Position numbers and translations under genes: made by a program. From Actinokineospora bangkokensis (lineage in GTDB: Bacteria; Actinomycetota; Actinomycetes; Mycobacteriales; Pseudonocardiaceae): a stretch of DNA of 64,000 nt. Positions 2,361-23,598 of the stretch are shown here, piece after piece. The notes below the pieces were generated by a model, which was given only the letters and a program-made list of their open reading frames with translations, was not told the origin of the DNA and made no database searches. The stretch is taken from the NCBI RefSeq assembly GCF_001940455.1, contig NZ_MKQR01000025.1, positions 101,164 through 165,163 of the forward strand, read 5' to 3'. Positions within the stretch are counted from its first letter, which is position 1; each line of letters opens with the position of its first letter.

Positions 2361-3845
2361 TCAGGCGGGTTGGTTGCTCGCCTGGAGTTCGGTGACGGCC
2401 CACAGGTACTGCACGGCGTAGGCGCGCCAGGGCCGCCACGCGGCGGCGTGCGCGTCGAGCGCGGCGGGGGTGAACGGCAGGCCCAGGGCCCGCGCCGCCG
2501 CCCGCACGCCGATGTCGCAGGCCAGGAACGCGTCGGGGTCGCCGAGCGCGCGCATGGCGATCATCTCCACCGTCCACCGGCCGAACCCGGGCAGCACCGC
2601 CAGCCGGGCCCTGGTGCGCTCCCGGTCGGCGCCCACGCCCAGGTCGATCGTGCCGCCCGCGAGGGCGGCGACCAGCGACACCAGCGACTCGCGGCGGCCC
2701 CGGGGCAGGCCGAAGCGCTCCGGGTCCACCTCGGCCAGCGCGGCGGGGGTGGGGAACAGGTGGGTCAGCCCGCCCACCGGGTCGTCGACCGGGTCGCCCA
2801 GCTCGGCCACCAGCCTGCCCAGGTGGGTGCGCGCGGCGCCCGCGGACATCTGCTGGCCGACCACGGTGCGGATGGCCAGTTCGGCGCCGTCGACGGTGCG
2901 CGGCACCCGCCTGCCCGGTTCGCGGCGCACCTGCCCGGCCAGCGCCGGGTCGGCGGCGAGCAGGTCGTCGACGGCCACCGGGTCGGCGTCGAGGTCGAGC
3001 AGCCTGCGGCAGCGGCTGATGGCCCGGGACAGGTCGCGCAGGTCGGTGAGGGTGAGCTGGCAGGAGACGTGGTCGGCGGCGGGGCGCAGGGTGGCGGTGC
3101 CGCTGCCGTGCGGCAGCCGCAGGGTGCGCCGGTAGGCGCCGTCGCGGAACTCCTCCAGGCCGGGCACGGCGGTGGCGGCCAGGTGGGCGAACAGGTTGTC
3201 CGGGGACAGCGGTTCGCGGAAGGGCAGCCGCAGGGTGATCGCGCCGGGGCTGGCGACCTGCCTGCCCGCGCGCAGCCGCAGCTCGGTGGGCGGCAGCGCG
3301 AACACCTCGCGCACGGTGTCGTTGAAGGTCCGGATGCTGCCGAACCCGGCCGCGGCGGCCACCTCGCTCATCGGCAGCGTCGTGGTCTCGATGAGCAGCC
3401 GGGCGGTCTGCGCCCGCTGCGCCCTGGCCAGCGCCAGCGGCCCGGCGCCGAACTCCGCGAGCAGCTGGCGCTCCACCTGGCGGACGCTGTAGCCCAGCCG
3501 GGCGGCCAGGCCGGGCACGCCCGCCCGGTCCACCACCCCGTCGGCGATGAGCCGCATGGCCCTGGCGGCGAGGTCGGCGCGCTCGTTCCACTCCGGGGAG
3601 CCGGGGCTGGCGTCGGGCCTGCACCGCTTGCAGGCGCGGAAGCCCGCCGACTGGGCCGCGGCCGCGCTGGGGAAGAACGTCATGTTCTCCGCCTTGGGCG
3701 GCATGCTCGGGCAACTGGGTCGGCAGTAGATCCGGGTCGTCCTGACCGCGGTGAAGAACCAGCCGTCGAAGCGCGCGTCCTTGGAGCGAACCGCGCGCAC
3801 GCAGCGATCGAAGTCCTCATGCACCCGGTCAAGGATGGGGGTCAC
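2361..3845 (-). CDS. alkA: Ada-AlkA fusion: methyl-DNA sensor and 3-methyladenine DNA glycosylase
   Basis: A 494-aa DNA alkylation repair protein. Residues 1-80 are the Ada zinc domain, with C41, C45, C72 and C75. C41 aligns with the methylphosphotriester-accepting cysteine of Ada. An AraC-type helix-turn-helix domain follows (about 85-180), then the AlkA N-terminal domain (about 190-310) and the HhH-GPD glycosylase domain. The glycosylase domain has GFGRWTVEMIAMRALGD and the likely catalytic Asp in FLACDIGVR. The C-terminal O6-methylguanine methyltransferase domain of E. coli Ada is absent. The fusion probably senses methyl phosphotriesters, activates transcription and excises alkylated bases. 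This architecture is common in actinobacteria. The gene stands alone, convergent with the dehydrogenase gene. Confidence 0.93.
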   Translation of the reverse strand: MTPILDRVHEDFDRCVRAVRSKDARFDGWFFTAVRTTRIYCRPSCPSMPPKAENMTFFPSAAAAQSAGFRACKRCRPDASPGSPEWNERADLAARAMRLIADGVVDRAGVPGLAARLGYSVRQVERQLLAEFGAGPLALARAQRAQTARLLIETTTLPMSEVAAAAGFGSIRTFNDTVREVFALPPTELRLRAGRQVASPGAITLRLPFREPLSPDNLFAHLAATAVPGLEEFRDGAYRRTLRLPHGSGTATLRPAADHVSCQLTLTDLRDLSRAISRCRRLLDLDADPVAVDDLLAADPALAGQVRREPGRRVPRTVDGAELAIRTVVGQQMSAGAARTHLGRLVAELGDPVDDPVGGLTHLFPTPAALAEVDPERFGLPRGRRESLVSLVAALAGGTIDLGVGADRERTRARLAVLPGFGRWTVEMIAMRALGDPDAFLACDIGVRAAARALGLPFTPAALDAHAAAWRPWRAYAVQYLWAVTELQASNQPA

Positions 3846-20904: not shown

Positions 20905-20932
20905 GTTGGTGCGACCGTTCGGGGGTACCAAC
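20905..20932. promoter_or_regulatory. inverted repeat in the kinase/repeat-peptide divergent region
   Basis: GTTGGT at 20905-20910 and ACCAAC at 20927-20932 face each other across 16 bases, 41 nt before the peptide gene start. The position suits an operator for the repeat-peptide operon. No matching regulator is adjacent. Confidence 0.35.
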
Positions 20933-20972: not shown

Positions 20973-21518
20973 ATGTCGCTCGAAGACGACGACATCCGCA
21001 GTGGCCACATCGGCGAGCACGGCCCGGCCGACTCGAGCGCGGGCACCGCGGACCACGGTGCCGCGGGCCAGCCCGGCGGTCACGACGGCGGCGCGGACGG
21101 CGGCGCGGACGCGGGTGCCGACGGCGGAGCGGACGGCGGCGCGGGCACCGCGGACCACGGGGCCGCGGGCGTGCCCGGCGGCCACGACGGCGGTGCGGAC
21201 GGCGGCGCTGACGGCGGTGCTGACGGCGGTGCGTCCGGCACGGCCGACCACGGCGCGTCCGGCGTGCCCGGCGGCCACGACGGCGGCGCTGACGGCGGTG
21301 CCGACGGCGGCGCGGGCGCCGACCACGGTGCGGCCGACAGCGCGGCGGGCACGGCCGACCACGGCGCGTCCGGCGTGCCGGGCGGCCACGACGGTGGCGC
21401 TGACGGCGGTGCCGATGGCGGTGCGGACGGTGGCGCCGATGGCGGTGCTGACGGCGGTGCTGACGGCGGTGCCGACGGTGGCGCGGACGGCGGTGCCGAC
21501 GGCAGCGCGGGCCTGTGA
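20973..21518 (+). CDS. Asp/His/Gly/Ala repeat peptide, possible substrate of the adjacent JmjC oxygenase
   Basis: A 181-aa low-complexity protein with no Cys, Lys or aromatic residues. Residues 1-24 (MSLEDDDIRSGHIGEHGPAD...) form a non-repetitive acidic head. Four modules follow, at 25-58, 59-89, 90-126 and 127-181. Each opens with TADHGA(A/S)G(Q/V)PGGHD and continues in GGAD units, nine in a row in the last module. The head and repeats look like a leader plus multiple core segments. RTX calcium repeats are excluded because no hydrophobic position is present. ATG 20973 has CTGGAGG 5 nt upstream. Its stop overlaps the oxygenase gene by GTGA. I do not recognise the family, and a substrate role is inferred from context. 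Confidence 0.75.
   Translation: MSLEDDDIRSGHIGEHGPADSSAGTADHGAAGQPGGHDGGADGGADAGADGGADGGAGTADHGAAGVPGGHDGGADGGADGGADGGASGTADHGASGVPGGHDGGADGGADGGAGADHGAADSAAGTADHGASGVPGGHDGGADGGADGGADGGADGGADGGADGGADGGADGGADGSAGL
21045..21501 (+). repeat. four coding modules of TADHGA-GGHD-(GGAD)n
   Basis: The DNA repeats at two scales: modules of 31-55 codons and 12-nt GGAD units inside them. Units encoding the same residues use different codons (GGC GGT or GGT GGC; GCC, GCG or GCT; GAC or GAT). The protein sequence is therefore conserved beyond simple slippage. Confidence 0.9.
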
Positions 21519-22744
21519 GCACGTCTCCCACCGGGCGGTCCTCCCAGGGGGACCGCCCGGCCCTGCGCCGGTGCCTGGAGCTCGACCCGGACACCTTCGC
21601 CGCCGAGCACTGGGGCCGCACCCCGGTGCTCGGGCACCCCGGGTCCTTCGCCGACCTGCTCACCCTCGACGACGTCGACGAGCTGCTGTCGCGGCGCGGG
21701 CTGCGCACGCCGTTCCTGCGGGTGGCCAAGGACGGCGCCGTGCTGTCCTCGGCCCAGTTCACCAGCGGCGGCGGGGTCGGCGCCGAGGTCGCCGACCAGG
21801 TCAACGACGGCAAGGTGGCCCGGCTGTTCGACCAGGGCTCCACCCTGGTGCTCCAGGGGCTGCACCGGCTGTGGCCGCCGCTGGTCGAGTTCGCCTCCCA
21901 GCTCGGCGTCGACCTCGGGCACCCGGTCCAGGTCAACGCCTACATCACCCCGCCGTCGTCGCAGGGCTTCTCCGCCCACTACGACGTGCACGACGTGTTC
22001 GTGCTCCAGGTCGCCGGGGAGAAGCGCTGGCTCATCCACGAGCCGGTGCACCGCGACCCGCTGCGCGACCAGCCCTGGGACCAGCACGCCGCCGCCGTGC
22101 GCGAGCGCGCGCAGGGCGAGCCGCTGATCGACACCGTGCTGCGCCCCGGCGACGCCCTCTACCTGCCGCGCGGCTACCTGCATTCGGCGCGCGCCCTGGG
22201 CGGGGTGTCGGCGCACATCACCGTCGGCATCCACGTGCTCACCCGGTACGCGCTGGTGGAGGCCCTGCTCAAGCTCGCGGGCGCGGAGGAGGAGCTGCGC
22301 ACGACGCTGCCGCTGGGCATCGACGCCGCCTCCCCCGACGAGCTCACCCAGCACCTCGACGCCACCCTCGACGCCCTGGTGCGCACGCTCAAGGCCGCCG
22401 ACCCGGCGGAGGTCTCGCGGTTGGTGCGCAACCGCGTCTGGTCGGGCACCAAGCCCGCCCCCCTGGCCCCGCTCGCCCAGGCCGCGGCCGCGCAGTCGGT
22501 GGCCGAGGGCACCCGCGTGGTGCTGCGCCGGGGCCTGCGCCACCGGCTCACCACCCGCGGCGACCGCGCCCTGCTCGACCTGCCCGGCGACCGGCTCGAC
22601 CTGCCCGCCTACACCGCGCCGGCGCTCGCCGCCCTGCTGACCGGCGCCCCCGCCGCGGTGGGCGAGCTGCCCGGCCTGGACGCGGCCGACCAGGTGACCC
22701 TGGTGCGCAGGCTCCTGCGCGAGGGGGTACTGGTCCCGGAGTGA
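21515..22744 (+). CDS. JmjC/cupin oxygenase of the ribosomal-oxygenase (NO66/MINA/YcfD) type
   Basis: A 409-aa Fe(II)/2-oxoglutarate-dependent oxygenase. The metal triad is H155 and D157 in FSAHYDVHDVFVLQ and H223 in LYLPRGYLHSAR. GEKRW supplies the lysine expected to bind 2-oxoglutarate. A helical dimerisation/winged-helix-like C-terminal half follows. Known relatives hydroxylate Arg or His side chains of ribosomal proteins. The start overlaps the repeat-peptide gene and the stop overlaps the Fe-S protein gene, both by GTGA. The Asp/His-rich repeat peptide is therefore the leading candidate substrate (inference). No ribosomal protein gene is near. Confidence 0.9.
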   Translation: MSTSPTGRSSQGDRPALRRCLELDPDTFAAEHWGRTPVLGHPGSFADLLTLDDVDELLSRRGLRTPFLRVAKDGAVLSSAQFTSGGGVGAEVADQVNDGKVARLFDQGSTLVLQGLHRLWPPLVEFASQLGVDLGHPVQVNAYITPPSSQGFSAHYDVHDVFVLQVAGEKRWLIHEPVHRDPLRDQPWDQHAAAVRERAQGEPLIDTVLRPGDALYLPRGYLHSARALGGVSAHITVGIHVLTRYALVEALLKLAGAEEELRTTLPLGIDAASPDELTQHLDATLDALVRTLKAADPAEVSRLVRNRVWSGTKPAPLAPLAQAAAAQSVAEGTRVVLRRGLRHRLTTRGDRALLDLPGDRLDLPAYTAPALAALLTGAPAAVGELPGLDAADQVTLVRRLLREGVLVPE

Positions 22745-23598
22745 CAGCACGCCTCCCCTCCCCCGAGCGGTGCGCCGACGCCTGCGGCCGCCGCGGCGAC
22801 CCGCTGACCGGGACCGCGCCCCCGGTGCCCCGCTGGCTGCTCGTCGAGCAGCCCAAGGCCTGGGGGCCGGACCCGTGGCGCGACTGCGCCCTGCCCGCGG
22901 ACGTCATCGCGGGCCTGGCCCGGCGGGCAGCTCAGGTGGGTGCCCGGGTCATGCTCATCCGACGGCCCGGCAGGCGCGAGGAGGGCCCGCTGCGGTGGGC
23001 CTACGTGGACTCGCTGCGCGGGGAGTCGTGGTGGTCGACCTTCGACGACCCGCACGAGCTGGTCACCTCCCCGTGGCCCAGCGGCACCCGCTCGGTCGAC
23101 CCGGTGTACCTGGTGTGCGCGCACGGCCGCCACGACACCTGCTGCGCGCTGCGCGGGCGCCCGGTCGCCGCCGCGCTGGCCCGGTCGCGGCCGGAGCGCA
23201 CGTGGGAGTGCTCGCACGTCGGCGGCGACCGGTTCGCGGCGAACCTGGTGGCGCTGCCGCACGGCTTCTACTTCGGCCAGGTCACCCCCGAGGGGGTCGA
23301 GCGGCTGGCCGAGGACTTCGAGGCGGGCCGGTTGACGATCCCGCTGGTGCGCGGGCGCACCACCCTCACCGGCCCGGTGCAGGCCGCCCAGCAGGTCGCC
23401 AGGGAGCGCACCGGCGAGGCGGGGGTGGAGGCGTTCGCGCCGACCCGGGTCGAGCAGGTGGAGCAGGGGCGGTGGGTGGTCCACCTCGACGGGCTGGCCG
23501 AACCGGTGCGGCTGCGCGCGGAGTTCGTCACCTCGGACTCGCCGCTGACGTGCAGCGCCACGGCCCCCGGGCGGTTCAGGGTGTTCGTGGCGGAGTGA
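22741..23598 (+). CDS. sucrase/ferredoxin-like thioredoxin-fold Fe-S protein
   Basis: A 285-aa Suc_Fer-like protein. The probable [2Fe-2S] ligands are C126 (VCAHGRHD), C134/C135 (TCC) and C157 (ECSHVGGDRFAANLVALPHG). C11 and C15 add a cysteine pair at the N-terminus. The C-terminal 100 residues are a separate domain of unknown role. GTG 22741 overlaps the oxygenase stop. The protein may donate electrons to the JmjC enzyme, keep its iron reduced, or act on the modified peptide. JmjC oxygenases do not normally need a ferredoxin, so the partnership is unusual. Confidence 0.88.
   Translation: MTARLPSPERCADACGRRGDPLTGTAPPVPRWLLVEQPKAWGPDPWRDCALPADVIAGLARRAAQVGARVMLIRRPGRREEGPLRWAYVDSLRGESWWSTFDDPHELVTSPWPSGTRSVDPVYLVCAHGRHDTCCALRGRPVAAALARSRPERTWECSHVGGDRFAANLVALPHGFYFGQVTPEGVERLAEDFEAGRLTIPLVRGRTTLTGPVQAAQQVARERTGEAGVEAFAPTRVEQVEQGRWVVHLDGLAEPVRLRAEFVTSDSPLTCSATAPGRFRVFVAE

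Follow-up and report, generated by a model that had tools for sequence, protein, structure and literature searches.

Within a 64,000-nucleotide stretch of Actinokineospora bangkokensis DNA (contig NZ_MKQR01000025.1, positions 101,164 to 165,163; hereafter the window), three genes follow one another on the forward strand and encode an Asp/Gly/Ala-repeat peptide, a JmjC oxygenase of the JmjC_2 family with the ROX fold and a Suc_Fer-like protein, the two junctions being four-base GTGA overlaps. We favor, with reasonable confidence, the interpretation that these genes form a minimal cassette resembling those of ribosomally synthesized and post-translationally modified peptides (RiPPs), in which the peptide would serve as substrate of the oxygenase and its repeated Asp residues would be oxidized, most simply to beta-hydroxyaspartate. 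The assignment of the repeat peptide as the substrate is very probable, and Asp is quite likely the modified residue. Hydroxylation, presumably at the beta position, seems somewhat better placed than another oxidation, while metal binding by the product is a guess from chemistry that we regard as rather doubtful. The gene content and overlaps had been recognized in an earlier sequence-only reading of this DNA and were confirmed here.

The same reading had coupled the repeat peptide to the oxygenase, and this pair turned out to be conserved well beyond the window. Oxygenase loci of Actinomycetota were collected with their flanks (157 loci, L002–L158) and reduced to 152 distinct ones by removing five duplicates; seven of these lie at a contig end, leaving 145 readable. 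A composition-based detector found an Asp-rich open reading frame (ORF) directly upstream of the oxygenase in 120 of the 145 versus none of 270 control genes, taken from the flanks of L059–L138 without the cassette; its thresholds were set after viewing the peptides, so the figure of 120/145 is descriptive. An earlier and stricter detector (84 positive and 61 negative loci) had a control contaminated by ORFs overlapping the same peptides (20/438) and was replaced. Inspection by eye added repeat-type peptides at seven loci (L014, L030, L052, L066, L076, L077 and L138), bringing the total to 127 of 145, and a short non-repeat ORF resembling a precursor and ending near the oxygenase start at 13 others. 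A precursor-like ORF is therefore found upstream of the JmjC gene in 140 readable loci, as expected of a RiPP precursor adjoining the gene of its modifying enzyme, the modification itself being presumed. The sequence-only reading had counted homologous oxygenases lacking a repeat ORF as evidence against the coupling. A search of named genomes kept the 80 best of at least 555 places, hereafter the named loci, and all 75 readable ones hold the repeat peptide, one of them split between frames. In the whole set, L037, a member of the repeat clade, and 17 more distant relatives lack a repeat, and 13 of these 17 possess the short ORF. The split case, L138, belongs to a Micromonosporaceae metagenome bin and carries its Asp-repeat peptide over two frames in the 600 bases preceding the oxygenase match at position 3353, through either mutation or assembly error.

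Within the genus, 15 genomes were found and the peptide gene is present in all 16 loci read, L014 running into a contig end; this conservation sets it apart from the spurious ORFs of GC-rich DNA. The window belongs to an Actinokineospora-type genome of 7.45 Mb, which encodes a single PF08007 protein, and residues 1–80 of the peptide matched only their own locus. Among the named loci, the oxygenase closest to that of the window is from Actinokineospora spheciospongiae (79% identity, the same sequence as in genome G003). Oxygenase matches were obtained in 39 of 61 genomes of relatives and in 42 of 296 across the phylum. A profile search across the order returned a JmjC relative in 180 of 298 genomes at E 1e-30 or better, a count that refers to the oxygenase alone; the phylum and order searches scored at most six candidates per genome. 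None of 138 plasmid records covered 80% of the oxygenase, and one from Streptomyces clavuligerus was followed further.

When ORFs of at least 80 amino acids within about 8 kb were clustered over 23 loci (the window and 22 from different genera or bins), only three clusters occurred in more than five: the oxygenase (23), its antisense ORF (18) and the Suc_Fer protein (13). In an oxygenase tree comprising 77 of the 152 loci, the type of repeat core tracks the oxygenase, with 8 label changes versus a mean of 33.7 after shuffling and none of 200 shuffles as low. Such agreement is expected for an enzyme and its substrate, though relatedness alone also favors clustering. In this labeling, L138 was entered as 'none' despite its frame-split peptide, and L037 as DxD though its upstream ORF is acidic without a repeat.

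The window peptide is composed mainly of Gly (68), Ala (40), Asp (32) and His (11) and contains neither Cys, Lys nor aromatic residues; its single Arg is located in the leader-like region. Acidic start motifs such as MSLEDDDIRSG, MALDDDDMTTSG or LTDEDIxTVW open most of the repeat peptides printed, while the cores that follow differ, and this combination of a kept leader and a changing core corresponds to what defines an encoded RiPP precursor. Shifting the array by 12 bases against itself revealed differences at 34/140 first, 46/140 second and 72/141 third codon positions, a pattern fitting selection on the protein. The last nine DGGA units vary at third codon positions only, which is partly built in, the stretch having been picked for constant protein; the lag values, which cover a longer stretch, are the fairer measure. 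The window peptide matched no Pfam or NCBIfam family, and ten other upstream peptides gave no profile match above cut-off, the best being a daptide profile for L158 (E 0.009, 15.8 bits, cut-off 25). The peptides of L012 and L014, which come from two species of Actinokineospora, contain long runs rich in Gly (with GGGGFGGGG) as well as an acidic tail that reads DTESGGRAGSGLDDESGRGRGEEDSGGFGSR in L012 and almost the same in L014.

Which residue these cores share was scored in two ways, over the C-terminal 60 residues (tails) of the 120 peptides found by the detector and over the whole core of 108 peptides with an assignable start. Among the tails, 98 are of the DGGA type, with Asp mostly every four residues and usually followed by Gly, while the other 22 mostly resemble DADGTDGDATD, with Asp every two or three residues. 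Asp is missing from no tail and no whole core. Because it occurs in all detected peptides while repeat spacing changes and His is often absent, Asp is the best candidate target. The sequence-only reading had placed Asp and His on an equal footing, a parity that did not hold: His is absent from 40 of the 120 tails (21/98 of the DGGA type, 19/22 of the others) and from 24 of the 108 whole cores. Hydroxylation of the His residues in the GGHD and ADHG modules, by analogy with NO66 and MINA53, which their Protein Data Bank (PDB) titles describe as His hydroxylases, would suit the 11 His of the window peptide, yet the same kind of oxygenase accompanies tails and cores without His, and we consider this target very improbable.

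The oxygenase retains the HxD...H Fe(II) triad of ROX-type enzymes, invariant in 26/26 aligned sequences together with K170, N141, Y143 and S232, and its predicted fold comprises the JmjC domain, middle helical region and C-terminal winged helix that characterize ROX proteins. Its nearest described counterparts are the ribosomal oxygenases NO66 and MINA53, whose fold it is predicted to share, and bacterial YcfD (RoxA), with at most 26% identity to NO66; unlike them, it is encoded with an Asp-repeat peptide and has no recurring neighbor except Suc_Fer. There are precedents for both the kind of substrate and the chemistry proposed here, each taken from excerpts of the papers cited. BipG is a JmjC hydroxylase acting on ornithine (Orn) in a RiPP (PMC12707348), FIH, a relative, hydroxylates L-Asp (PMC9814778) and Asp beta-hydroxylation in RiPPs is known from a multinuclear non-heme iron-dependent oxidative enzyme (MNIO) (PMC13060819). 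BipG and the cupin-like PbsQ of biphenomycin-type RiPPs (PMC12707348, PMC12257519, in the portions available) likewise act as JmjC/cupin oxygenases on a precursor from the same cluster. As far as those portions describe them, the two enzymes target a single Orn of a small core, in clusters with an MNIO, a B12-dependent radical S-adenosylmethionine enzyme, an arginase or arginase-like step and a TldD-type protease, whereas the 23 clustered loci have no such recurring gene set and carry a long Asp repeat as core. The available part of PMC12710340 describes a PF08007 domain fused to a fold like the RiPP recognition element (RRE) and places its nearest bacterial homologs (about 30% identity) in RiPP-like contexts; these RRE-JmjC fusions are fish and algal, and that part names neither an Asp-repeat precursor nor a Suc_Fer partner. 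By comparison with this excerpt, the modeled C-terminal winged-helix region of the window oxygenase may be an RRE-like leader-binding domain.

The proposed reaction would start from a ribosomal precursor whose short acidic leader (MSLEDDDIRSG) precedes an Asp-repeat core that lacks Cys and is probably disordered. The acidic N-terminus would dock on the oxygenase, perhaps at its C-terminal winged-helix domain, and the Fe(II)/2-oxoglutarate enzyme would then work repeatedly along the core, Asp after Asp, consuming 2-oxoglutarate and oxygen. Beta-hydroxylation of Asp (of Asp-Gly in the window clade) would be the likeliest chemistry and the simplest for this oxygenase fold. The Suc_Fer protein could act as an accessory [2Fe-2S] redox partner, for instance by keeping the oxygenase iron reduced or by handling product-bound metal, although the pair can do without it. 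The reaction would yield a poly(hydroxy)aspartyl polyanion, which might serve as a ligand of Fe(III) or Ca(II). As the repeat type has no recurring exporter or peptidase gene at its side, this product may remain in the cell, or it may leave by general export routes.

The Suc_Fer protein scores 67.7 bits with PF06999 versus a curated cut-off of 34.9 and is modeled with a mean pLDDT of 93 as a thioredoxin-like ferredoxin fold; a search of the PDB returned no convincing sequence match for it (P0003). It has in common with Apd1/Aim32 and other Suc_Fer-like proteins the PF06999 domain, this fold, C-x8-C and HxGG (motif as given in excerpts of PMC11138216). In the Apd1-type ligand motif C-x8-C...H-x-G-G-H, C126-x8-C135 and H159 are present and the last His is replaced: residue 163 is Asp in 21, Cys in 4 and Glu in 1 of the 26 aligned sequences, and never His, which suggests an unusual [2Fe-2S] coordination. 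The aligned proteins further differ from Apd1/Aim32 by an additional invariant N-terminal Cys11. The sequence-only reading had considered the Fe-S protein as a redox helper, a role whose necessity is weakened by its distribution. No Suc_Fer gene adjoins the pair in 19 of the 80 named loci, and five Micromonosporaceae-type genomes retaining the pair yielded no copy (150 candidates scored out of 198–337 per genome). Suc_Fer is thus common but dispensable for the pair and has apparently been lost in a lineage. A second Suc_Fer-like protein of a cassette-bearing genome, L162 (G000:C9:710430-711203), lies away from the cassette.

Related oxygenases outside the repeat type keep other company. In Streptomyces clavuligerus, a 48-amino-acid hypothetical protein (MDDKKTSLEPDEIEVIPPVSTPDFVIADNDPSDPPIAIADPDPFDPVI, of the ADNDPSDP type) is annotated together with a cupin protein, an S9 peptidase and, further on, an ABC transporter gene. 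In four Actinokineospora species, a related oxygenase adjoins an S9 peptidase matching the S. clavuligerus one (E 1e-205 to 1e-221), so that this peptidase accompanies the sister short type in 5/5 species looked at; in two of these four (L142, L143) the precursor ORF ends in ADNDPSDP-type repeats. At L178, also from Actinokineospora, an ABC transporter-like protein stands next to the S9 peptidase (PF00005; the best NCBIfam match, MsbA, is below cut-off). Of the five relatives lacking a precursor, three have as neighbors a lantibiotic dehydratase C-domain, a nitroreductase and a carrier-protein domain. From these neighborhoods, the wider family looks like one devoted to peptide tailoring. Upstream peptides of 40–45 amino acids ending in NDGND(G) or SDGND precede a distant JmjC gene at L144, L145, L146, L153 and L154, with Suc_Fer in L144–L146; they are possibly a third precursor type.

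The oxygenase might instead oxidize the core in another manner, by desaturation, backbone oxidation or a side-chain crosslink leading to a macrocycle. Regularly spaced repeats would suit iterative crosslinking, and PMC12710340, in its accessible portion, cites a 2025 paper titled on RiPP macrocyclization by an alpha-ketoglutarate-dependent dioxygenase where it places bacterial JmjC homologs in RiPP-like contexts. The composition of the cores speaks against this: the window peptide is devoid of aromatic residues, Cys and Lys, with its only Arg in the leader, and among the 108 whole cores Cys is absent from all and Lys/Arg from 50. The nearest solved ROX-fold enzymes are, moreover, described as hydroxylases or demethylases, and we regard these other oxidations as rather unlikely. 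It is less probable still that the peptide is an unmodified, acidic and disordered chaperone, binding metal or protein on behalf of the oxygenase or the Fe-S protein, while the oxygenase finds its target elsewhere, the ribosome being one example. In favor of this reading, metal binding by a polyanion requires no modification, and the closest solved structures are ribosomal oxygenases. Against such a chaperone, the pair is kept and its core type follows the oxygenase tree (though, as said, relatedness alone would favor that), sister enzymes are paired with quite different short ORFs, some in surroundings resembling those of peptide products, and the distribution is patchy in both phylum and order, unlike that of a core ribosomal function.

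Several observations weigh against a RiPP-like cassette modified at Asp. The nearest solved folds belong to ribosomal oxygenases acting on His or Arg. Each of the 108 whole cores contains Ser/Thr, and none of the 120 tails lacks Gly or Ala, which makes another target residue possible. The 13 short precursor-like ORFs were judged by eye without a control, and some, such as that of L147, are poor in Asp. Five of the 145 readable loci (L031, L037, L140, L150 and L157) have neither a repeat nor a short precursor ORF upstream, and L037 falls inside the repeat clade. Several inner branches of the oxygenase tree are weak. In contrast to classical RiPP clusters, the repeat type lacks a recurring exporter or peptidase gene, none being shared by more than 5 of the 23 loci. 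Regarding metal binding, an IdeR-type box was sought within 200 bases 5' of each of 108 peptide genes; the best matches have 8–12 mismatches out of 19 and none resembles a real box, random stretches of the same loci giving 7–12. Matches with at most 9 mismatches occur in 37/108 upstream regions versus 103/540 random stretches, a slight excess that base composition may explain. Since no clear iron-regulator box lies upstream, the metal interpretation is without regulatory support.

A literature search retrieved no paper on the peptide-oxygenase pair and none containing the repeat strings; a 2025 paper on 2-oxoglutarate-dependent RiPP macrocyclization may cover relatives. The statement of the sequence-only reading that no three-part system of this kind has been characterized therefore stands, within the limits of the searchable literature. 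RiPP-like systems with a JmjC oxygenase are known; this one is set apart by the Asp-repeat precursor, the two- or three-gene cassette and its wide distribution. Were the Asp repeats modified, a two-gene pair of many actinobacteria would make a ribosomally templated, multiply oxidized polyanion with a fold that has mainly been associated with the hydroxylation of ribosomal proteins. Bacterial relatives of human NO66/MINA53 would thereby gain natural substrates, the origin of these two proteins from peptide-tailoring enzymes could be tested, and hydroxyaspartate polymers would become accessible by genetic programming. A bolder proposal, which we hold to be unlikely in its entirety, would see here an undescribed and widespread RiPP class of Actinomycetota in which a ROX/NO66-type oxygenase turns the Asp-repeat chain into a genetically templated, polydentate poly(beta-hydroxyaspartyl) metal ligand, assisted by a variant [2Fe-2S] partner (2 Cys, 1 His, 1 Asp/Cys), with NO66/MINA53 descended from such peptide-tailoring enzymes.

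Table 1. Features of the three-gene locus (positions in the window)
Feature	Position	Strand	Basis
Part of conserved upstream DNA element GACCGTTCGGGGGTACCA, putative promoter or operator	20913..20930	+	GGGGGTA in 14/15 aligned Actinokineospora upstream regions
Asp-repeat precursor-like peptide gene	20973..21518	+	ATG start, 181 aa; conserved upstream of JmjC gene
Leader-like acidic N-terminus MSLEDDDIRSGH	20973..21008	+	Similar motif M-[SA]-[LI]-x-D-D-[DE]-[IM] in most repeat peptides printed
Repeat core: TADHGA / VPGGHDGGADGGA / (DGGA)n modules	21037..21508	+	TRF tandem repeats; codon-phase comparison
JmjC_2 (PF08007) oxygenase with ROX fold	21515..22744	+	GTG start, 409 aa; PF08007 E 1.7e-27
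HxD of Fe(II) site (H155, D157)	21977..21985	+	Invariant in 26/26 aligned homologs; aligns with HYD of NO66
Distal Fe(II) ligand His (H223)	22181..22183	+	Invariant in 26/26
C-terminal winged-helix-like region, residues about 319-409, candidate RRE-like leader-binding domain	22469..22741	+	Model secondary structure; alignment to NO66/MINA reaches residue 409
Suc_Fer-like (PF06999) protein with thioredoxin-like [2Fe-2S] ferredoxin domain	22741..23598	+	GTG start, 285 aa; PF06999 E 1.8e-18
Thioredoxin-like ferredoxin domain, residues 120-206	23098..23358	+	C126-x8-C135-x23-H159-x-G-G-D163

Tens of bases 5' of the peptide start lies a DNA block reading roughly CCCGTTCGGGGGTACCA, often preceded by GCATGG and also present in 13 of the 14 other aligned Actinokineospora loci. 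A scan of its own genome allowing up to three mismatches returned seven sites for this element, the one in Table 1 being the best (two mismatches, three for the others), and ten sites for a reversed control pattern. An element of the form GGGGGTA(C/T)C occurs upstream of 14 of the 108 peptide genes versus 13 of 2160 random stretches; 13 of these 14 are Actinokineospora loci and the last is L024, so that the element is mainly a feature of the genus.

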